Positions 53,139 through 64,000 of a stretch of 64,000 nucleotides of DNA are shown piece after piece. The notes below the pieces were generated by a model, which worked only from the letters and a program-made list of their open reading frames with translations, was not told where the DNA came from and searched no databases. Each line of letters starts with the position of its first letter. Position 1 is the stretch's first letter. The DNA is taken from positions 1,922,001 to 1,986,000 of the forward strand of contig NZ_CP107009.1 of assembly GCF_025725665.1 (NCBI RefSeq), read 5' to 3'. The position numbers were made by a program, and so were the translations under genes. The DNA comes from Halomonas sp. LR3S48. GTDB taxonomy: Bacteria; Pseudomonadota; Gammaproteobacteria; Pseudomonadales; Halomonadaceae.

Positions 53139-54554
53139 ATGAAAGCAACAACACTCGAGGGTACCGAGATCGATCTGAGCCCGGACATGCTTGCTGGCTT
53201 GAAGCTCCAGCTTCAGGGCCCGCTGTTGACGCCGGAAGACGCGGACTATGAAGCCTCGCGCCGCCTGTGGAACGCCATGATCGACCGACGGCCGGCTATG
53301 GTTGTGCGCTGCCTTGGGGTCGCCGACGTGATGGCGTGCGTGCGCTTCGCCCGTGAGCACGAGCTGCTGCTCTGCATCAAGGGGGGCGGTCACAACATCG
53401 CGGGCCTGGCGGTGGCCGATGGCGCGCTGATGCTCGACCTCTCGCTGATGCGCGGGGTCTGGGTCGACCGCGAACGCCGGGTGGCCCATGCCCAGGCGGG
53501 GTGTGTGCTCGGTGACGTGGACCGCGAGACCCAGGTGCATGGCCTGGCCACCGTGCTCGGCTTCATCTCCACCACCGGCATCGCCGGGCTCACCCTCGGG
53601 GGCGGCTTCGGCTATCTGAGCCGGCGCTGGGGCTATACCACCGACAACGTGCTGGGCATGGACGTGGTGACCCCCGACGGCAGCCTGGTGCATGCCAGTG
53701 CCGATAAGAATGCCGACCTGTTCTGGGGCCTATGCGGGGGCGGCGGCAACTTCGGTGTGGTGACCGGCTTCGACTACCAGTTGTATCCCGTCGGCCCCGA
53801 GGTGGTGGGGGGCTTGGTGGCCTGGCCCGCCAGCGAGGCCCCAGCGGTGCTCGAGCTTTATCAACGCCTGGCCGAGCAGGCTCCGCCTGAATTGACCCTG
53901 GTCGCCCTGATGCGTCCCGCGCCGCCGGTCCCCTGGCTGCCGAAGGAGTACCACGGCCAGCCGATCGTGGCGCTACTTGCCTGCTATAGCGGTGACCCGG
54001 AGGAGGGCGAGTTGGTGGTCGCGCCGATCAAGGCCTTCGGCCAACCCATCGGCGACGTGATGGTGCGGCGGCCCTATGCGCAGATGCAGAAGCTGCTCGA
54101 TGCCACCCAGCCCAAGGGGCGGCGCTACTACTGGAAGAGCGAGTATCTGCCGGGTATCGAGCCCGCGTTGTGCGACAAGGCGATCGAGCATGCCGGACGC
54201 ATCCGCTCGCCGCACTCGGTGGTGATCCTGTTCCAGCTCGGCGGCGCCCTGAACCGGCATGACGACGACCACTCGGCTGTGGGCAACCGCGATGCGCGCT
54301 ATGTCTTCAACGTCGGAGGCGCCTGGGAGTCGGCGGCCGACGACGCGGAGAACATCGCCTGGGCCCGCGAGGCGTGGGACGACCTGAAGGCCTTCTCCAC
54401 TGGCGGCACCTACATCAATTTCCTGACCGAAGACGAAGGCCAGGAGCGTACTGAAGCGGCCCTTGGCCCGGCGCTCCAGCGGCTCGGCGAGATCAAGCGT
54501 CGCTGGGACCCTGATAACCGCTTGCGCGTCAATCGCAACATCGCACCCGGCTGA
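53139..54554 (+). CDS. FAD-linked oxidase, berberine-bridge-enzyme type
   Basis: A 471-residue PCMH-type flavoprotein. The FAD-attaching His lies in CIKGGGHNIAGLAVADGALMLDLS; the second covalent Cys of true BBE enzymes is missing (TTGIAGLTLGGGFGYLSRRWG has none), so a single 8-alpha-histidyl link is expected. The C-terminal BBE-like element RRWDPDNRLRVNRNIAP is present. It oxidises sugars, alcohols or secondary metabolites with oxygen. No signal peptide is visible. The 3' end abuts the truncated IS4-type transposase. Confidence 0.87.
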   Translation: MKATTLEGTEIDLSPDMLAGLKLQLQGPLLTPEDADYEASRRLWNAMIDRRPAMVVRCLGVADVMACVRFAREHELLLCIKGGGHNIAGLAVADGALMLDLSLMRGVWVDRERRVAHAQAGCVLGDVDRETQVHGLATVLGFISTTGIAGLTLGGGFGYLSRRWGYTTDNVLGMDVVTPDGSLVHASADKNADLFWGLCGGGGNFGVVTGFDYQLYPVGPEVVGGLVAWPASEAPAVLELYQRLAEQAPPELTLVALMRPAPPVPWLPKEYHGQPIVALLACYSGDPEEGELVVAPIKAFGQPIGDVMVRRPYAQMQKLLDATQPKGRRYYWKSEYLPGIEPALCDKAIEHAGRIRSPHSVVILFQLGGALNRHDDDHSAVGNRDARYVFNVGGAWESAADDAENIAWAREAWDDLKAFSTGGTYINFLTEDEGQERTEAALGPALQRLGEIKRRWDPDNRLRVNRNIAPG

Positions 54555-55342
54555 GTCGGAAGCTTGCCGCCAACATGGCGATCATCAACAGAATCTCGAT
54601 TCGCCGCTCGCTACGCGTCTGATTCATTCCGAAATCTAGGCCGAACAAAGGGCTCTTTACGTCGCGAAAGCCCTCTTCTATTTGCATGCGCTGGCTATAT
54701 ATTGCCACCAATTTTTTGGCAATCGTGAGAGATGGCGGAAAGTTGTTGACTGGAAGCCAAGGCTCTTGATTTCTGCTGGCTGCCTTCTGGCTACGCCAGG
54801 CTCGCGATGGTCCACCAAATTTATTGAGCTGCTTCCTGCCCTTGGCAGCTTTTCGCACCCGATAAAGCCGCGTGTGAAGTGGGCAGCACCTTGCAGTTTC
54901 TATCGGACCGAGGATTTCGTGGGGCGTTTTGGCACCTGTTAACAAGTGACCAATTGACTGCCAAGTACTGCCTGGAGGCTGCACCAGTGTCGGGCGACGT
55001 AATCGCCGCACACAGGACATAATATCGGCCTCGGTCGTCTACTGGTGACCAGTCCACCAGGATACGTGGGTGCCTCATCCTACCGGTGAGCAGGCGTGCC
55101 ACATGCCAATAGAACAACGATCGCTCCTGCTGAAGATGAGGATTGCCGAGCAAACGATCCATGCGCTTGATGGCATGCTTGGGGGTAGTGTCGCCCGGTA
55201 GGTGACGCTCCAAGGCGGTGAGCACCAGGCGCTGTCCAGCCAGCAGTGCCTGCACGCTATCAAGAACAGCGTTCAGGCGAAGGGAATGGATGACCTGGGC
55301 TGAATCCGACAGTATCTCTTGCAAGAATCGGGTCGTCTGCAT
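54529..55342 (-). pseudogene. IS4-family transposase, deleted and frameshifted
   Basis: Two frames carry the halves. 55342 to ~54900 has the N-terminal part with the first catalytic Asp (RILVDWSPVDDRG). The C-terminal part ends at 54529 with the IS4 signature Y-x2-R-x3-E-x6-K (YSQRMQIEEGFRDVK). The segment carrying the second catalytic Asp is missing between them, and the total (~270 codons) is well below the ~400 of intact relatives. The C-terminus is also cut where it meets the flavin oxidase gene. It cannot encode an active enzyme. Confidence 0.85.
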
Positions 55343-55709: not shown

Positions 55710-56648
55710 ATGTTACATCTTATGGATCTAAGTGCGTATACGTTCGGAGGTGCTAGCATTAATAACCATCTGGCAGACTTGGACGAATTCGGGTCAAACC
55801 CGGGCGGATTGGATGCCAAGATATATATACCGGCGGATTTGCCCGAGGGTGCGCCGCTCGTCGTCGTTCTACATGGTTGTAAACAGACAGCAGCGAAGTA
55901 CGACGAGGGTTCCGGCTGGTCTGAAATTGCTGACCAATATGGCGTTGCATTGCTTTTTCCCGAGCAGCGGCGGTTGAACAATTGGCTTCTAGGTTTCAAT
56001 TGGTTCAAGCCTGGCGACAGCAATCGCGGCGCTGGCGAGCCACTCTCCATTCTTCATATGGTTGAACAAGTGGTCATAGATCATGGCATCGACCCCGAGC
56101 GTATCTTCATCACAGGATTGTCCGCAGGCGGCGCCATGACGTCGGTCATGCTTGCGACCTACCCGGAAATCTTTGCTGGCGGCGCCATCATCGCCGGTTT
56201 GCCTTATGGCAGTGCCTACACAACCCTGGCGGCACTACGCCGAATGAAGGGTCGCGGATCCCCGACAGCACAACAGCTTGAAACACGGCTGCGTAATGCC
56301 TCGGCGCATGAGGGGCCTTGGCCAACGCTGTCGGTCTGGCATGGAAGCTGTGACCATACGGTTGATGCCTCGAACGCCAACGCAATCCTCGGGCAGTGGC
56401 GAGCGCTTCATAATCTTGAGAAAAGGCCATCTAGTACACACATCATCAATGGCTATCCTCGGCGAGTATGGAGTGATGTCGAGGGTCACGAACTTATTGA
56501 AGAATACAATATTAGCGGGATGGGCCACGGCACACCGCTGAAAACGCATGGTAAAAAGAGTTACGGCTCGAGAGGCGCCTTCATGCTTGATGTGAATATC
56601 TCTTCCACGCGTCACATTGCTGACTTCTGGGGCTTGAGTGCAACGTGA
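55710..56648 (+). CDS. PHB depolymerase/esterase family protein
   Basis: A 312-residue alpha/beta hydrolase of the LpqC/short-chain PHA depolymerase family. It has an oxyanion region VVVLHGCKQTAAKYDEGSGW, the lipase box GLSAGGAM with S138, an Asp in WHGSCDHTVDASN and a late His in MGHGTPLKT. It hydrolyses short-chain polyhydroxyalkanoate or aryl esters. The ATG at 55710 has AAGGAG upstream; no clear signal peptide follows, so it may be cytoplasmic. Its AT-richer codons (ATA, TTA, AAT) stand out from neighbours and point to transfer. Confidence 0.85.
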   Translation: MLHLMDLSAYTFGGASINNHLADLDEFGSNPGGLDAKIYIPADLPEGAPLVVVLHGCKQTAAKYDEGSGWSEIADQYGVALLFPEQRRLNNWLLGFNWFKPGDSNRGAGEPLSILHMVEQVVIDHGIDPERIFITGLSAGGAMTSVMLATYPEIFAGGAIIAGLPYGSAYTTLAALRRMKGRGSPTAQQLETRLRNASAHEGPWPTLSVWHGSCDHTVDASNANAILGQWRALHNLEKRPSSTHIINGYPRRVWSDVEGHELIEEYNISGMGHGTPLKTHGKKSYGSRGAFMLDVNISSTRHIADFWGLSAT

Positions 56649-56708
56649 AGTGCTCCAATTGGAGCGGACACCCCTATAAGCCTCATACTGTAGGCAATGA
56701 AGGTATTC

Positions 56709-57310
56709 ATGACCAAGAAGGCTCGACGTCGGTTTTCCGATGAATTCAAGACGGATGCGGTGGCCCTGATGACAAGCTCCAGGCCCTGCTACACGTGGTC
56801 AGAGAGATCCATCGCCAGAAGCGTGGCAGCTATGGCAGCCGCCGCATAGCCAGAGAACTGCGGCGGCGCGGCTACGACGTGGCCGTTACCAGGCCCGAAG
56901 CCTGGATGCGGGATGCGGGAGGCGGGTGTAGAGGCACGGCAGCGGCGTCGGTGGTGCCATACGCGCGACAGTGAGCACAACCTGCCGGTGGCACCCAGTC
57001 TGCTGAACCGCCAGTTCATGGTGGCGGAACCGAATCGGGTCTAGGTGGCCGATATCACGACTATTTGGACGCTGGAGGGATGGCTCTATCTGGCGGCGGT
57101 TCTCGACCTCCACGACCGGCAGTTGGTGGGCTGGGCGACGGCCGACCACATGCGCACGTAGCTGGTGCTGGACGCCCTGGAGATGGCCATAGGTCGCCGG
57201 CAGCCCGAGAACGGGTTGATCCATCCTAGCGATCGCGGCAGTACGCATCTCGTGATTACCTCTCCACGCTGGATCGGCAGGGGTTCCAGGCCTCGATGAG
57301 CCGGAAGGGG
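56709..57310 (+). pseudogene. IS3-family transposase remnants (orfA start and orfB)
   Basis: The start MTKKARRRFSDEFKTDAVAL (56709) is the orfA helix-turn-helix of an IS3 element. It breaks off within 25 codons and continues as orfB pieces: EIHRQKRGSYGSRRIARELRRRGYDV, then the first DDE strand VADITTIWTLEGWLYLAAVLDLHDRQLVGW and LVLDALEMAIGRRQPENGLIHPSDRGS in frames broken by TAG codons at ~57042 and ~57159. A 14-bp palindrome GCTCCAATTGGAGC (56652-56665) precedes it, near the likely left end. It is inactive. Confidence 0.82.
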
Positions 57311-57538
57311 AGTGGCTTAGGGCTTAGGCGTCACCCGGTCTTTCGGCCAATTTCATTCGTTCTGATTCGTTTAATAGCGGGCTATTCGCCTCATCAGATC
57401 GATAAACTTGTCTCGAAGTCCAAATCTCTCGTGACGATCGGTCAAACCCGACAGGCTCCTAGGCTGCCTGTTTTACCGTGAGGTGGATGAAAACGCGCTC
57501 AACCGAACAGACTCCGGTCGTCACTCGTTGCGTTCGTA

Positions 57539-57566
57539 TTGACGTACGTACCTGAAGGCGTACAAT
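57539..57566 (+). promoter_or_regulatory. Promoter of the toxin-antitoxin pair
   Basis: TTGACG (57539-57544), 16-bp spacer, TACAAT (57561-57566). GTAC-centred repeats (GTACGTAC and GTACA) lie across the spacer and -10, similar to the TGTACA cores bound by YefM-type antitoxins. Confidence 0.65.
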
Positions 57567-57598
57567 TAATGAAAGGGTGAACACACCAGAGGTGGACC

Positions 57599-57841
57599 AT
57601 GACCGGAATAACCGCAACTGAGGCACGCAGCAACCTGTATCGGTTGATCGATGAAACGGCTGAATCTCACCAGCCGATCGTTATCCTGGGTAAGCGGAAT
57701 AAAGCTGTCCTGGTGTCAGAAGAAGATTGGTCAGCCATTCAGGAAACTCTATACCTGCTTTCTGTGCCAGGCATGCGAGAGTCTATCCGCGAGGGGATGG
57801 ATGCTCCTGTCGATGAGTGTGACGAGGAGCTCGACTGGTGA
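57599..57841 (+). CDS. yefM: YefM/Phd-family antitoxin
   Basis: An 80-residue antitoxin: a DNA-binding N-terminus (ITATEARSNLYRLIDETAESHQPIVILGKRNKAVLVSEEDWSAI) and an acidic, disordered C-terminus (GMDAPVDECDEELDW) that wraps the toxin. It neutralises the toxin and represses the operon with it. It overlaps the toxin start by 4 bp (GTGA), guaranteeing coupled synthesis. Confidence 0.9.
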   Translation: MTGITATEARSNLYRLIDETAESHQPIVILGKRNKAVLVSEEDWSAIQETLYLLSVPGMRESIREGMDAPVDECDEELDW

Positions 57842-58101
57842 CATGGAAGTTGGTCTATACCAAGCAAGCCCAGAAAGATGCCAAGAAGCTGGCGTCCAGC
57901 GGACTGAAGCCAAAAGCTCTGGAATTGCTGGCACTGATTGCAGAAGACCCGTACCGGAAGCCGCCTCCGTTTGAGAAGCTTATCGGTGATCTTGCGGGAG
58001 CCTACTCACGGCGCATCAATATTCAACATCGTCTGGTGTATCAGGTGCTTGAAGGCGAACGAGTCATTAAAGTTCTCCGGCTCTGGAGTCATTACGATTG
58101 A
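57838..58101 (+). CDS. yoeB: YoeB-type mRNA interferase toxin
   Basis: An 87-residue RelE-fold ribosome-dependent endoribonuclease. KLVYTKQAQKDAKKLASSGLKPKALELL, then PPFEKLIGDLAGAYSRRINIQHRLVYQV and the C-terminal SHYD follow YoeB; the Glu, Arg, His and Tyr expected for catalysis are present. The start is GTG within the antitoxin stop. The pair lies in an insertion-rich patch, consistent with a role in stabilising it. Confidence 0.9.
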   Translation: MTWKLVYTKQAQKDAKKLASSGLKPKALELLALIAEDPYRKPPPFEKLIGDLAGAYSRRINIQHRLVYQVLEGERVIKVLRLWSHYD

Positions 58102-58162
58102 TGCCTAACCCTGTTTACGGACTGAAGTGGGCTGCGCGCACCACTTCCCGTCTACAGAGAAA

Positions 58163-58279
58163 CGAGCAGGAGCGCCAGCACATCCTCAACGCCGTCCAGC
58201 GCAACATCCTGCAGATGCTCGGCGTCGACGAGAGTAAGCTGGAGAGCATGCTGGATGCCACGGGTTAGGAGCAGCGCCC
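58163..58279. repeat. TetR 3' end, second copy (truncated gene relic)
   Basis: A 117-bp stretch matching 52811-52927 at 109 positions with no gaps, including the stop codon and the next 11 bp. Only the last ~35 codons of the TetR-like gene exist here. The eight differences are spread evenly, most at third positions, so the copies have been apart for some time or derive from two paralogues. Confidence 0.95.
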
Positions 58280-58392
58280 CGCGTGGCATTACCTCCTGAG
58301 CAGCAGGGAACGAAAGCCCCTGTCGTTAACCAAGCAATGCACGCGGCAAGTGGGTGATTGCGGCGCTGGACGCCGCCAGAGAGGAATAGTTG

Positions 58393-58899
58393 ATGACGAC
58401 CGCGAATCAATCGATTGCTCGTTGCGCTTGTGGAAGCATTGAACTCGAAGTAAGCGGCTCACCGATTCTGGGCGCAGCCTGTTATTGCGACGACTGCCAG
58501 GAAGGGGCTCGGCAGATCGAAGAACTCCCGAACGCACACCCGGTTCTGGAGCCGGATGGCGGGACAGAATATTTGCTCTACCGCAAGGACCGCTTGAGAT
58601 GCTCAAAGGGAAGCGATCTCATGCAGGCCTTCACGATCAAGCCTGAGTCTCCCACGCAAAGGGTCGTCGCGACATGCTGTAATTCAGCCATGTATCTCGA
58701 CTTTCAGAAGGGACACTGGTTCTCGGTGTACCGAGCAAGGTTCGGGAGTAATGCACCACCGTTGCAGATGCGTATCCAAACCAAGTTCAAGCCCGAGAAC
58801 TGCGACATTCCGAACGACGTGCCCAGCTATGCAACATATCCGCTCAAGTTCGTTGCGAAGCTCATGGTTGCCAGAGCGGCGATGCTGTTCGGGCGTTGA
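58393..58899 (+). CDS. GFA-like (DUF6151) zinc-binding protein
   Basis: A 168-residue protein with Cys pairs CACG at the start, CYCDDC in the middle and CC further on, in the order seen in glutathione-dependent formaldehyde-activating (GFA) family proteins and the related DUF6151 group. It binds zinc; the formaldehyde-glutathione activity is doubtful for this subgroup. The ATG at 58393 directly follows an in-frame TTG. It ends 46 bp before DUF1801. Confidence 0.75.
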   Translation: MTTANQSIARCACGSIELEVSGSPILGAACYCDDCQEGARQIEELPNAHPVLEPDGGTEYLLYRKDRLRCSKGSDLMQAFTIKPESPTQRVVATCCNSAMYLDFQKGHWFSVYRARFGSNAPPLQMRIQTKFKPENCDIPNDVPSYATYPLKFVAKLMVARAAMLFGR

Positions 58900-58945
58900 G
58901 CGTAGAAAGAGGCGCATGTTCAGACTTCACAGGAGGAAAGCGGCG

Positions 58946-59386
58946 ATGACACGCGACAAGGCCAACCCACCGGCAGAAGCCAAACCAAAGCTCCTCTCGG
59001 GAGGAAACCCGCAGATCCCCAAGGCTGACGGCAACGCCCCCGTGCAGGCCTACATCGCCGCCATGCCGGAGTGGAAGCAAGACGTCGGGCGCCGGCTCGA
59101 TGCGCTGATTGAGCGTACGGTCCCCAATGTGCGCAAGGCCGTGAGATGGAACTCACCCTTCTATGGAATCGAGGGAGAGGGGTGGTTCCTCACATTCCAT
59201 TGCTTCACGAAGTACATCAAGGTGGCGTTTCTCAACGGCGCCTCGCTGGAGCCGCTGCCGCCCATCGCATCCAAGGACCCCAATACCCGCTACCTGCATA
59301 TCCACCAGGACGAACAGATCGACGAAGAACAGGTAGCGGAGTGGATTCGCCAGGCATCCAACCTGCCTGGTGAACGTATGTTCTAG
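58946..59386 (+). CDS. DUF1801 family protein
   Basis: A 146-residue protein with the YdhG-like DUF1801 fold: VQAYIAAMPEWKQDVGRRLDALIERTVPNVRKAVRWNSPFYGIEGEGWF, then TKYIKVAFLNGASLEPLPP and a C-terminal helix. Family function is unknown. AGGAGG before the ATG at 58946 fixes the start; the frame upstream lies inside the GFA gene. Confidence 0.8.
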   Translation: MTRDKANPPAEAKPKLLSGGNPQIPKADGNAPVQAYIAAMPEWKQDVGRRLDALIERTVPNVRKAVRWNSPFYGIEGEGWFLTFHCFTKYIKVAFLNGASLEPLPPIASKDPNTRYLHIHQDEQIDEEQVAEWIRQASNLPGERMF

Positions 59387-59497
59387 CGAAGGTCCCGTTC
59401 AGTCGGTCCAAGGCAACATGGCGCCAAGATGAAATCAGCATCAGGGTGGCTGACATGCCGTTCCCTTTGGATCAGGGAGGTTCTCGCGCAGAATTTT

Positions 59498-59526
59498 TGC
59501 GTCCTTCTGACGCCTGGACCGTCTCC
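59498..59526 (+). promoter_or_regulatory. Candidate ECF-type promoter
   Basis: TGCGTCC (59498-59504), a 15-bp spacer, then CGTCTCC (59520-59526). ECF promoters often have a CGTC-containing -10 element. The match is by layout only and could be chance; it lies 53 bp before the microprotein start. Confidence 0.25.
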
Positions 59527-59530
59527 TGTT

Positions 59531-59563
59531 GTGAAAGCCTCGCAAAGGGCGAGGAGTTTTCAC
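59531..59563 (+). promoter_or_regulatory. Leader hairpin before the Cys-repeat gene
   Basis: CCTCGC-AAAGG-GCGAGG is a perfect 6-bp stem with a 5-nt loop (59538-59554). Outer arms GTGAAA (59531-59536) and TTTCAC (59558-59563) pair around it. It ends 3 bases before the GGAGG ribosome site and could be a translational control element. Confidence 0.5.
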
Positions 59564-59578
59564 CTGGAGGAATCCAAA

Positions 59579-59743
59579 ATGAATCAGAAAGCGCAGGCAC
59601 TTGAATCAACTGAGGCGGCCGGGCAGGAGAGCGCATCGCAGCCGTGCTGCGACCCAAGCGAGCAGGCCACCTGCTGCCTGCCGCAGGCCAAGGCCGAATG
59701 CTGCGGCCCACCCACGGAGGAGGCTGCATGCGGGTGTCGGTAA
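59579..59743 (+). CDS. Cys-rich microprotein with CCxP nonapeptide repeats
   Basis: A 54-residue protein with no recognised family. After a ~22-residue Ala/Ser/Gln start it reads CCDPSEQAT, CCLPQAKAE, CCGPPTEEAA, CGCR: three 9- to 10-residue units, each opening CC-x-P, ending with CxC. Eight of the last 32 residues are Cys. This looks like a metal- or thiol-binding peptide, possibly a sensor or buffer for the adjacent sigma factor. The ATG has GGAGG eight bases upstream, and its last 16 bp overlap the sigma-factor gene. Confidence 0.7.
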   Translation: MNQKAQALESTEAAGQESASQPCCDPSEQATCCLPQAKAECCGPPTEEAACGCR

Positions 59744-60297
59744 GTGCGAACCACGAACAGGACCAACGCCTGCTGTGGCAGGCGTTTCGCACCGAACTCC
59801 TGCGCTTCGTGAGCAGGCGGGTAGCGGACGAGAGCGTGGCGGAGGACATCGTGCACGACGTCCTCATCAAGGCGTTCTCCCACCGCGATGAGCTGAGGGA
59901 CGGCTCCCGGCTGCGCGCATGGCTCTACCAGATCACCCGCAATGCACTGGTGGATCACTACCGGGCGTACAAGCCGCTCGAACCGCTGCCGGCGGAACTG
60001 GATGAGCAATCGGAGCCAGATGAGCGAGCGGAAGCGGAGCTGGCCCTGTGCCTGCGCCCACTCATGGGCAAGCTGCCGGAAAAGTATCGGGAAGCGCTGC
60101 TCACCACCACGGAGGCCGGCCTGACTCAGAAGCAGTATGCTTCCCAAAAGGGGCTGTCGATCTCAGCTGCCAAATCCCGCGTGCAGCGCGGCCGCGCCTT
60201 GCTGCGCGAAGCGCTGGTGCAGTGTTGCCGAGTCGAAATGAACCAGCGCGGAGAGGTGTTGAACTACGATCTCGGTGAAGGATGCCAATGTCACTAG
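59728..60297 (+). CDS. sigZ: ECF RNA polymerase sigma factor (SigZ type) with Cys tail
   Basis: A 189-residue ECF sigma factor. Region 2 covers ~8-75 (LLWQAFRTELLRFVSRRVADESVAEDIVHDVLIKAF, RAWLYQITRNALVDHYR) and region 4 covers ~105-160 (KLPEKYREALLTTTEAGLTQKQYASQKGLSISAAKSRVQRGRALL). The C-terminus adds C166-C167, then C186-Q-C188-H189, reminiscent of the Cys-rich domain that lets CorE-type ECF factors sense metals directly. No anti-sigma gene is adjacent. GGAGGAGG precedes the ATG inside the microprotein gene. Confidence 0.85.
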   Translation: MRVSVSANHEQDQRLLWQAFRTELLRFVSRRVADESVAEDIVHDVLIKAFSHRDELRDGSRLRAWLYQITRNALVDHYRAYKPLEPLPAELDEQSEPDERAEAELALCLRPLMGKLPEKYREALLTTTEAGLTQKQYASQKGLSISAAKSRVQRGRALLREALVQCCRVEMNQRGEVLNYDLGEGCQCH

Positions 60298-60506
60298 CAC
60301 AAGGCCGTCACTTTCCCCGTGCTACTCCACTTCCTCGTTCTCTCATAGCCTGCCCCTATCGAGGCGAAAGCCTGCCATCTCCTTGACGGCTTCGGTCCTT
60401 AATCCTTCACTGATATCTGACGGCTTGTAGGAATGACAAAAATGAGGCGATGCGGCGACGTCGGCTCAGACCTCCTGTAGGCCACCATCCAGTCGAGGAG
60501 AAGACC

Positions 60507-62708
60507 GTGTCTGAACAAAAGTCTAAACGCCGGGAGTGGGGGGCACGCACCACACCCAGTCTGCAGGGCAACGAACACTGGTGGCCCGACCAGCTCAACC
60601 TCAACGTGCTGCACCAGAAGCACCCCGATGCCAGCCCGTTCGGTGCCGACTTCAGCTACGCCGAGGCGTTCTCGCAGCTCAACGTCGACGAACTCTGCGC
60701 CGATCTCGATGCCTTGATGACCGACTCACAAGAGTGGTGGCCCGCCGACTGGGGCCACTACGGCCCGTTCTTCATCCGCATGTCGTGGCATGCCGCCGGC
60801 ACCTACCGCGCGGTAGACGGCCGCGGTGGCGGCGGCACCGGCGCCCAGCGTTTCGCACCGCTCAACAGCTGGCCCGACAACGGCAACCTGGACAAGGCCC
60901 GCCGGCTGCTGTGGCCGATCAAGCAGAAGTACGGCGAGAAGATCTCCTGGGCCGACCTGCTGGTCCTTGCCGGCAATCGCGCGCTCGAGACCATGGGTTT
61001 TCGCACCTTCGGTTTCGGCTTCGGCCGCTCCGATATCTGGGCGCCCGAGGACGACATCTACTGGGGCCCCGAGGCCGAGTGGCTCTCGACCAAAGACGAG
61101 CGTTATACCGGCACCTGGGAAGACGGCAGCCGCACCCTCGACAACCCGCTCGCCGCGGTGCAGATGGGGCTGATCTACGTCAACCCGGAGGGCCCCAATG
61201 GCATTCCCGACGCGATGAAGTCCGCCCAGGACGTACGCGAGACCTTCGCCCGCATGGGCATGAACGACCGCGAGACCGTCGCGCTGACTGTGGGCGGCCA
61301 CACCTTCGGTAAGATGCACGGCAACGGGCCGGCTGATGCCGTCGGCGACGCGCCGGAGGCCGCGAAGATTCACCAGCAGGGGATCGGCTGGGCCAACAAG
61401 CACGAGACCGGCCTTGGTGAGTACACGGTCACCTCCGGCCTCGAAGGGGCCTGGACCCCGACGCCGACCAAGTGGGACAACGCCTACCTCAACACCATCT
61501 TCGCCCACCAGTGGGAGGTGAAGAAGTCGCCCGCGGGTGCCAATCAGTGGCAGCCGGTCGAGGTGAAGGAGGGGTACTGGGTGCCCGACGCCCACGTCGA
61601 AGGCAAGAAGAACCCGCCGGTGATGAACACCGCCGACATGGCGATGATCACCGACCCCATCTACCTCGAGATCGCCAACGAGTTTCACCAGAACCCGGAT
61701 GTGCTCGCCGACGAGTTCGCCCGCGCCTGGTACAAGCTGCTGCACCGTGACATGGGTCCGCAAGCCCGCTACCTCGGCCCGCATGTACCCAACGAAGACC
61801 TCGTCTGGCAGGACCCGGTGCCCAAGCATGAAGGGCCGCTGGTCAACGATCAGCAGGTCGCCACGCTCAAGCAGCAGATCGCCGACTCCGGCCTGACCGC
61901 CAAGCAACTGGTGGGCACCGCCTGGGCCGCGGCCTGCACCTACCGCCAGACCGACCACCGCGGCGGCGTCAACGGTGCGCGTATCCGTCTCGAACCGCAG
62001 ATCGGCTGGGACGTCAACGTACGCGCCGGCGTGCCCGAAGTGCTCGACCGGCTTGAGCAGATCAAGGACGCCTCCGGCACTAACATCTCGCTGGCGGACA
62101 TGATCGTGCTGGGCGGTAACGTGGGAGTCGAGATGGCAGCGAAGGCAGCCGGCCACCACATCACGGTACCGTTCTCCCCGGGCCGCACCGACGCGAGCCA
62201 GGAGATGACCGAGATCGATGCACATGCCTACCTCGAGCCGAGGCACGATGCCTTCCGCAACTACATGCAGCCCCAGGCGACCAACATTCCGGCCGAGCAC
62301 CTGATGATCGACCGCGCCTTCATGCTGAATCTCAGCGTACCGCAGATGACGGCGCTACTCGGTGGCATGCGGGCCATCGGCGTCAACGTCGGTGACAACA
62401 GCAACGATGGCGTCTTCACCGACCGCCCCGGCCAGCTGACGAACGACTTCTTCGTCAACCTCGTCGACATGGGCACCGTCTGGGAGCCGCTCGACGAAGA
62501 AGAGGAACGCTTCGAAGGGCGCCACCGCAAGACGGGCGAGAAGAAGTGGACCGCCACCCGCGTCGACCTGGTGTACGGCTCCAACTCGCAGCTACGCGCC
62601 ATCGCCGAGGAGTATGCCGCCAACGGCGGCGAGGAGCGCATGCTCGACCGCTTCGTGAAAGGGTGGGTCAAGGTCATGGAGAACGACCGCTTCGACCTGC
62701 ACCGCTGA
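60507..62708 (+). CDS. katG: Catalase-peroxidase KatG
   Basis: A 733-residue bifunctional heme enzyme that dismutates hydrogen peroxide and acts as a peroxidase. Distal R91-W94-H95 in [13 protein letters not shown] and proximal H265 in [11 protein letters not shown] are intact, and the Tyr and Met of the Met-Tyr-Trp adduct lie in LIYVNPEGP and in the following MGMNDRETV. The C-terminal inactive repeat is complete. The GTG at 60507 has GAGGAG six bases upstream. It is read in the same direction as sigZ, 209 bp downstream, so it has its own promoter and is possibly sigma-linked. Confidence 0.95.
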
Positions 62709-62750
62709 ACGACAGGTCCGCAGCAGTAACGCGGGCCTGGCTCAAAACCG

Positions 62751-62786
62751 ACCCCGAAGGTGGAATTTCCGCTTTCGGGGTTTTTA
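62751..62786 (+). terminator. Terminator after katG
   Basis: ACCCCGAA and TTCGGGGT pair (62751-62758 with 62774-62781) around a loop that itself folds through GGAA/TTCC, followed by TTTTTA. It lies 43 bp after the stop. Confidence 0.85.
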
Positions 62787-62900
62787 TTTCATCTCATGCT
62801 TTCGTTGGCGTTGATCTCAGCGTAACGGTTGTTTACGGTTAGTAAAAAGCTGCAGAAGATAGCTTAGAGACCAAGTAGTACGCAGGGACTGCCGCACTAG

Positions 62901-62921
62901 TGATGATGCGAATTATCATCA
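62901..62921. promoter_or_regulatory. Fur/Zur-like palindrome in the katG-csd gap
   Basis: TGATGAT (62901-62907) and ATCATCA (62915-62921) are perfect arms around 7 bp. The 19-mer at 62902-62920 agrees with the Fur consensus at 14 positions. The gap 62709-63081 otherwise holds the katG terminator and no gene. The next gene starts 160 bp downstream. Confidence 0.4.
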
Positions 62922-63081
62922 ATTCTGCCAGCAGGGGCGGTAGCGTGCCCCGACTCCCTATTTCCTCTCCCGCCTGACAAAACCCAGCTTTATCTAAAGT
63001 ACCCATTAACTTATTGGATTTAAAAGTCGATTTCGCCGCGTGGTATTCTCCGACGAATACTGATGACATAGAGATAACTCG

Positions 63082-63684
63082 ATGCGGCACGAGGGCAAGC
63101 TCACACAGTGGAACGACGACAAGGGCTTCGGGTTCATCACGCCAGCCGAAGGCGGCCCTCGCGTGTTCGTCCATATCAGCGCCTTTCCCCGCGATGGACG
63201 CCGGCCAACAGTCAACGAGCCGATCACCTACCACCTGACAAGTGACAGCCAGAACAGACCAAGAGCGCAGAAGGTGGGCTACCTGAAAGCGGCACGCCAT
63301 GCATCCCCGCGTTCCAGAGGACTGATGATGGCATACGCCATCGCCGCTGCGTTCTTCGCGCTCCTGGCGGCCATGAGCGCTCTAGGCCACACGCCATGGC
63401 AGTTCCTGGCGGCATACGCACTGCTGAGCGTGATCACCTTCGCCATGTACGGCATCGACAAAGCCGCGGCAGGGAAGGGCGGAAGGCGCACACCAGAAGC
63501 GACGCTGCTCTTCGCAGGCTTGATAGGCGGCTGGCCCGGCGCGCTGATAGCGCAGAGGCTGTTTCGGCACAAAACCAGGAAGCAGCCGTTTCAGATCATA
63601 TTTTGGTGTGGGGTGGTGGTGAATTGCGGGGTGCTTGGGTGGCTTGTTTATACGGGAGAGGCTGCGAGCGTTTGGGCTGGTTAA
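63082..63684 (+). CDS. Cold-shock domain plus DUF1294 membrane protein
   Basis: A 200-residue fusion. Residues 1-~70 form a cold-shock (OB) nucleic-acid-binding domain with RNP1 KGFGFI and RNP2 VFVHIS. Residues ~82-200 carry about four hydrophobic segments with the DUF1294 motif MYGIDKAAA...RRTPEATLLFAGLIGGWPGALIAQRLFRHKTRKQPF split over the core. The RNA-binding head therefore sits at the inner membrane. Function is unknown. Confidence 0.88.
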   Translation: MRHEGKLTQWNDDKGFGFITPAEGGPRVFVHISAFPRDGRRPTVNEPITYHLTSDSQNRPRAQKVGYLKAARHASPRSRGLMMAYAIAAAFFALLAAMSALGHTPWQFLAAYALLSVITFAMYGIDKAAAGKGGRRTPEATLLFAGLIGGWPGALIAQRLFRHKTRKQPFQIIFWCGVVVNCGVLGWLVYTGEAASVWAG

Positions 63685-63882
63685 GTTATGCGGGCTGTGG
63701 CGCGTCATGACCTTTTCCGCATCAGTTCTATTAGTTAATGCGCATGCAGCATATTGGTACCGGAAAAGCGCGAATGCGTGCAAATTCAGCATAGGTAGCC
63801 GAACTATATTTTGATGCTTGAAAAATCAACGAGTTAGAAGAAATGAAGCACATCAGATAATATTGTGGAACGCGCAGGATGC

Positions 63883-64000
63883 TCATTGAATATCAGGACG
63901 TGCAGTCCAATCACTGAACTTAAGAGCATTCTTTGGAATTATTTGACCCGAGAAGGCGTCAATGAAGAGTTTACCCTCGTAGAACAAGGGTATGCTCAAG
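63883..64000 (-). CDS. 3' end of an unidentified gene at the window edge
   Basis: An open minus-strand frame from 64000 ends at TGA (63885-63883). It encodes SIPLFYEGKLFIDAFSGQ then IIPKNALKFSDWTARPDIQ. The residues look protein-like, but the family is not recognised, and a competing plus-strand frame is also open to the edge. The 316-bp tail 63685-64000 is AT-richer than the rest of the window and holds nothing else I can support. Confidence 0.4.
   Translation of the reverse strand, partial: LSIPLFYEGKLFIDAFSGQIIPKNALKFSDWTARPDIQ

Follow-up and report, generated by a model that had tools for sequence, protein, structure and literature searches.

The SigZ family of extracytoplasmic function (ECF) sigma factors (TIGR02959) includes SigZ of Bacillus subtilis, the function of which a 2020 review gives as 'Not yet determined' (PMC7522486). 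The literature already has a SigZ promoter for B. subtilis, with C at position -34 in place of the A of SigW and SigV promoters (PMC6713349). SigZ is otherwise mentioned without a function (PMC10141391), for the expression of sigZ in an efp mutant (PMC13055313) and in one further paper (PMC3171730); all papers cited here enter as excerpts, and statements about them refer to those excerpts. Our subject is a SigZ-type sigma factor gene of Halomonas sp. LR3S48 together with the gene for a cysteine (Cys)-rich microprotein that overlaps its start, both within a 64,000-nucleotide (nt) stretch of contig NZ_CP107009.1 (positions 1,922,001 to 1,986,000, forward strand), which we call the window. The strongest result of the analysis is that one promoter motif, as judged from sequence comparisons, appears to tie the SigZ family to a set of genes that is rich in CC pairs and centred on arsenic, which offers SigZ a concrete promoter, gene set and sensor hypothesis. 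The sigma factor of the window is like B. subtilis SigZ in passing the family model and in the agreement of its promoter motif with the C at -34, and differs in the features proposed here for its type, namely four Cys in the tail, a promoter motif of two parts and a set of genes.

Three other described systems are close to this locus. The CorE-type sigma factors (ECF238; PMC8999054) share with it the ECF type, a Cys-rich C-terminus and the lack of a noticed anti-sigma gene, but they have another C-terminal pattern and other neighbours and are defined by a CxC in the linker that the sigma factor of the window does not have. OrbS of Burkholderia cenocepacia uses C-terminal Cys residues as an on-board metal sensor, as predicted for the window's sigma factor, but it is an iron-starvation sigma factor inhibited by Fe(II), and no Cys-rich partner is mentioned in the excerpt (PMC9023288). 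The DUF2703 proteins (PF10865), which have a thioredoxin fold (PMC3091736), include the product of a thioredoxin-like gene of Rhodococcus that stands beside arsenic genes and is induced by arsenate (PMC6514093); full-length relatives of our microprotein belong to this Pfam family, whereas the copy in the window has lost the domain with its CxxC and keeps the start region and a Cys tail. We found no paper linking SigZ to arsenic in the openly available literature, the ECF re-classification paper being outside the scope, and among the papers listed for sigma factors together with metallothionein, arsM, ArsI/CadI or arsenite methyltransferase no title or start of an abstract pairs SigZ with arsenic. 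The arsM of Cupriavidus is noted as not RpoD-dependent (PMC9045368), and the excerpt of a paper on B. subtilis and arsenic does not mention SigZ (PMC12607644).

A motif shared by SigZ-type loci and the genes behind it

SigZ-type loci were gathered from genome and plasmid collections, using the best 80 of at least 385 confirmed loci together with searches of the genus, order and class (G and L numbers are our handles for genomes and loci). L002 and L003, which are weak matches to other ECF factors, and L020, which is the same as L004, were dropped beforehand, and the 96 loci with a sigma match minus 7 duplicates gave 89 distinct loci. Alignment A2 holds 62 of these (61 and the window), and a TIGR02959 match is known for those 62. 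The sequence TGCGTCC...CGTC is present in all six loci of the genus as well as in L012 and L021. The pattern GCGTCYTT-N12 to 14-CGTC gave 89 matches in 74 of the 89 loci, which belong to many phyla, against 8 matches when the loci were read backwards; these counts are not blind because the pattern was widened after the loci had been viewed. No match was found in 30 general sigma-factor loci (103 kb), mostly housekeeping-type sigma genes by frame length, which are a control for sigma loci and not for ECF loci specifically. The strict form, GCGTCYTT-N13-CGTC, has a single copy in the 4.69-Mb genome of the window, ahead of the microprotein and sigma genes, with none for the reversed-pattern control, and this sole copy fits a self-contained, self-regulated unit; the original prediction had proposed a possible self-contained metal/thiol switch from the sequence of the window. 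A looser pattern stands before sigZ in two of five plasmid loci (L188 and L192; not in L189, L190 and L191). The GCGTC element also fits the C at -34 of the B. subtilis promoter, and this support is independent of the collected loci. The motif is probably the SigZ promoter.

For the prediction of targets we took the gene starting within 160 nt of each of the 89 motif matches. This gene was sigZ itself in 12 cases. Among the remaining 77, a CC pair was present in 54, compared to 8.9% of 16,046 random points treated alike, and 9 were Cys-rich microproteins, compared to 1.3% of the random points. Three of the nine are from loci of the genus and six are independent of it (L028, L064, L068, L078, L079 and L090), some being located downstream of sigZ or on the opposite strand. 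Cys-rich microproteins also adjoin sigZ without the strict motif in L010, L062 and L096; in that scan 12 Cys-rich small open reading frames (ORFs) lay on the sigma strand and 6 on the other, as a strand control. The arrangement of a Cys-tailed sigma factor beside a Cys-rich microprotein recurs in unrelated lineages. The genes behind the motif that have no CC pair include, by eye, a symporter-like gene (L009), an aldo/keto-reductase-like gene (L060) and an aminotransferase-like gene (L077).

The genes within 400 bp of sigZ in the 89 loci include ArsM at 33, ArsI-like proteins at 12, Cys-tailed glutathione S-transferases (GST) at 5 and DUF2703 proteins at 4; none of these four types was found in the 30 control loci. 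The ArsM of L023 (Sedimenticola), the one scored with a profile, passes NF008823 (344.3 bits, cut-off 263), and the remaining ArsM neighbours were recognised by tblastn with the L023 protein. The label ArsI-like is used because the L011 protein falls just under the cut-off of the ArsI/CadI model NF041414 (112.8 bits, cut-off 116). ArsP_1 permeases are encoded at L048 and L084, an SBF-family transporter that looks ACR3-like by eye at L090, and an annotated pair of ArsC and ACR3 lies about 2 kb from the SigZ gene of a Hymenobacter plasmid, on the opposite strand. In three Aliivibrio loci (L057, L066 and L070) a SigZ-type motif stands 36-37 nt before a gene of 532 codons, identified in L057 as glutamate-cysteine ligase (PF04262, 461 bits), the enzyme of the first step of glutathione synthesis. 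The original prediction had named copper and peroxide among the candidate signals; the neighbours of SigZ elsewhere suggest arsenicals, also on its list, and thiol chemistry rather than these two.

A separate site of the window's genome (G000:C1:3583513-3586092; L002, L183) has another ECF-like sigma gene flanked by two genes for ArsM-like methyltransferases, neither of which reaches the ArsM cut-off, and a similar methyltransferase pair is present in 4 of 5 relatives searched.

The sigma factor and its Cys tail

The sigma factor of the window passes TIGR02959 (184.6 bits, cut-off 168.65) and fails NF007215, which is also named SigZ (184.7 bits, cut-off 212); TIGR02959 hits each of the 62 sequences of alignment A2 with an E of 1e-20 or lower. 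Its C-terminus has CC at residues 166-167 and C-Q-C-H at 186-189, as had been read from the window. Across the 89 SigZ-type sequences C166 is conserved in 81, C167 in 86, C186 in 80, C188 in 67 and C108 in 67. In an AlphaFold model (mean predicted local distance difference test score, pLDDT, 89; predicted template modelling score, pTM, 0.50) the block of the tail has a pLDDT of 86-94, the region-4 helix stops at residue 166, and strands are formed by residues 167-171 and 177-182. Because of this order of secondary structure elements, the CC and the CxC should sit together at the open end of a beta hairpin. The 17 sequences of solved ECF structures that were matched end their coverage at or before position 153 of the 177 profile positions, so that this search yields no solved structure related to the tail. 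Between regions 2 and 4, the linker lacks Cys throughout residues 81-107, with one Cys at 108; the absence of the CxC led to the rejection of CorE membership, and the SigZ family takes the place of the CorE-type comparison drawn in the original prediction. The Cys tail is probably the sensor of the sigma factor.

Co-inheritance of the pair and origin of the microprotein

We queried 90 genomes of the genus, including that of the window, with each of the two proteins. The tail of the microprotein has strong matches in 6 genomes (E <= 1.1e-15, next best 0.006; at a loose limit of E 1, 73 of the 90 give some match) and the sigma factor is found in 6 genomes at E 1e-25. The two sets of six genomes are identical, and the genes are always adjacent with an overlap of 16 nt, as in the window. 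Judged by the identical contig coordinates of L004 and L020, Billgrantia saliphila is among the six. The pair is real and co-inherited: the overlap that the original prediction had described is borne out by the frames, the two proteins co-occur, and tail frame and overlap are kept in all six loci, more than chance would give, where random drift of the frame had been named as an argument against the pair. At E 1e-30 the sigma factor is rare outside the genus: the order yields 7 genomes out of 390 and the class 9 out of 369, each count including the genome of the window. DUF2703 genes above the cut-off also occur in two genomes of the genus in which SigZ was not found (L145 in G799 and L146 in G024).

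The microprotein is built as CCDPSEQAT-CCLPQAKAE-CCGPPTEEAA-CGC, a layout of CC-x7 type. It has no match among the NCBIfam and Pfam families at E 1, which holds for the Pfam metallothionein families as well (also none for the L068 microprotein at E 0.01), and PF10865 matches neither the microprotein nor any protein of its genome. In two relatives, G826 (L103) and G836 (L105), the same tail terminates full-length PF10865 proteins (81 and 85 bits, cut-off 23.6), while G000 (the genome of the window), G012, G031 and G796 have no PF10865 match. Alignment of the DNA shows internal deletions of graded size: what is left of the domain is its first part in G012 (L020), less in G031 (L005) and nothing in the window and G796 (L101). 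The reading frame is intact in the four shortened forms, each of which still has the start and the tail. As read from this series, the microprotein appears to be a miniaturised DUF2703 protein that has lost its domain rather than a primary invention, a correction to the original prediction. Between L103 and L105 the domain itself has a proportion of synonymous differences (pS) of 0.174 and of nonsynonymous differences (pN) of 0.048.

Full-length relatives are also found at greater distance, in L012 (sigma factor 53% identical) and in L021 (51%), a metagenome-assembled genome of KSB1, where they stop 4 nt before the start of the sigma alignment. The L012 protein has PF10865 above the cut-off, as has that of L013, and shares the tail pattern CC-x7-CC-x7-CC-x7-CGC; the L021 protein was identified by tblastn (49%). 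A tree built from 430 nt of sigma DNA places the full-length G826 with the window and Billgrantia saliphila (support 0.993) and the full-length G836 on the opposite side with G031 and the two outgroups (support 0.922). Because the full-length forms occupy opposite sides of the tree, the domain appears to have been lost at least twice or to have moved by recombination. Taken as a natural series, the loci show a redox protein being reduced to a 54-residue Cys tail that is still locked to its sigma factor, an unusual view of the origin of a microprotein.

Proposed mechanism and alternative explanations

We propose that the locus is an autoregulated operon of SigZ and the microprotein, in which SigZ uses its Cys tail to sense arsenicals or a similar thiophile and the microprotein serves as an output rich in thiols, and we give this a probability of about 0.55. 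SigZ would carry its own thiol sensor, in which the CC that closes the region-4 helix and the CxC past the beta hairpin form a cluster of four Cys. This cluster would be altered by a thiophilic toxicant, with trivalent arsenic, inorganic or methylated, as the most likely one, and the altered SigZ would drive the GCGTCYTT-N13-CGTC promoter. In other bacteria the same promoter would serve genes of arsenic modification and thiol chemistry; the one strict copy in this genome would drive the pair itself. The microprotein, a DUF2703 protein cut to its Cys tail, would act as a small sink that binds the toxicant, a role in which it plausibly still works, and translation would continue through the overlap into sigZ. 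A bolder extension, which we consider unlikely, is that the SigZ proteins of many phyla are an unrecognised class of thiol-sensing sigma factors controlling organic and inorganic arsenic defence from one promoter that is conserved, with the CC-rich partner peptides as part of the sensor, exchanging the metalloid with the sigma tail, setting the threshold and replacing an anti-sigma factor.

A number of results weigh against the proposed operon, in addition to the lack of blinding in the motif counts. The motif is missing in 15 of the 89 loci, including some with ArsI-like (L011, L018, L019 and L050) or ArsM neighbours (L033, L061 and L088), and a search of the window's genome with one mismatch gave 32 matches and 57 in the control; since there is no excess, no further targets are claimed in this genome. 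None of the four neighbour types lies within 400 bp of sigZ in 35 of the 89 loci, the window, L004 and L005 among them, and no arsM above the cut-off was found in the six genus genomes of the series, so that the link to arsenic holds here by family only. The SigZ gene of a Priestia plasmid has an aldo/keto reductase for a neighbour and no arsenic gene, that of a Vibrio plasmid has a GST-family gene and no arsenic gene, and no arsenic gene is present in the incomplete gene table for Rhodococcus. As to the ligand, SigZ may sense another thiophile (Cd, Hg, Sb, Zn or Cu) or thiol and electrophile stress rather than arsenic. We find this doubtful but worth keeping in mind: thiol defence in general makes use of CC-rich microproteins, of GST and of glutamate-cysteine ligase, ArsI and CadI fall under one NCBIfam model, and the one Priestia locus read lacks an arsenic gene, but ArsM is the commonest of the scored neighbours and the ArsI-like proteins, the ArsP_1 permeases at the two loci tested and the ArsC/ACR3-type genes near two loci all point to arsenic.

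The remaining doubts concern the microprotein. The ratio pN/pS of the tail has a mean of 0.60 (33 codons ahead of the overlap, six genomes), which is weak constraint, and although 1 of 6 Cys columns is variable against 14 of 27 others, the difference is not significant (Fisher p 0.19); evidence for constraint on the tail Cys is thus weak and counts against a strong claim. In G796 the sigma gene is frameshifted in region 4 behind an intact microprotein, by a real change or an assembly error. With the domain wholly or partly lost in four of the six genomes, and the sigma gene present in just 6 of the 90, these results would also suit a decaying operon: after the loss of the DUF2703 domain and the shrinkage of the regulon to this one operon, the tail frame would be an idle leader on its way out. 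We judge such decay improbable, as all four shortened forms stayed in frame with start and tail, sigma pN/pS is 0.24 in five genomes, promoter and leader stem are retained in all six, and decay would leave unexplained why Cys-rich microproteins follow the motif in lineages that are unrelated. Drift at the non-Cys positions, the in-frame deletions and the overlap kept in every locus of the genus could instead mean that the microprotein is mainly a translational coupler into the start of sigZ and its Cys inherited baggage. This has little to recommend it in our estimate, since the CC-x7 tail recurs in L012 at the distance of a 53% identical sigma factor, and since unrelated Cys-rich microproteins behind the motif include some that are downstream of sigZ or on the opposite strand, where coupling is impossible.

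Features of the locus and neighbouring genes

The coordinates of the features are given in Table 1. No anti-sigma gene was noticed by eye among the ORFs of 56000-64000, four of which were scanned against family libraries, in agreement with the first reading of the window. Rfam families at gathering scores were absent from the window, and neither a sigma-70-type promoter nor a terminator-like site was found within 59380-60560.

Table 1. Positions of the features of the SigZ-microprotein locus in the window
Feature	Position	Strand	Remarks
Cys-rich microprotein gene	59579..59743	+	54 aa; appears to be a DUF2703 protein with the domain deleted, keeping start region and Cys tail
SigZ-type ECF sigma factor gene	59728..60297	+	189 aa; TIGR02959 match
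Predicted sensor tail of sigma factor	60223..60291	+	C166-C167, beta hairpin, C186-x-C188
Putative SigZ promoter GCGTCCTT-N13-CGTC	59499..59523	+	Motif comparison across SigZ-type loci
Leader hairpin	59531..59563	+	Just 3' of the putative promoter, adjoining the ribosome-binding site of the microprotein
katG	60507..62708	+	Conserved neighbour downstream of sigZ

The leader hairpin, also seen in the original prediction, has a folding energy of -21.5 kcal/mol (z -2.43; -1.04, -3.54, -3.25 and -2.47 in four relatives), and its stem CCTCGC/GCGAGG is present in all six genus loci. Those loci contain no compensatory changes in the stem, and an RNA switch is therefore not claimed. The gene katG, likewise already placed behind the pair, follows sigZ in the same direction in all six sigZ-bearing genomes of the genus, at about 2.7 kb in one of them. 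There is no SigZ-type motif between sigZ and katG; co-transcription of the two is possible, since no terminator-like site was found between them. Further upstream in the window, positions 57599-58101 hold a pair of genes resembling a toxin-antitoxin module of YefM/YoeB type, and 54529-55342 hold overlapping pieces resembling a broken transposase gene, both by eye.
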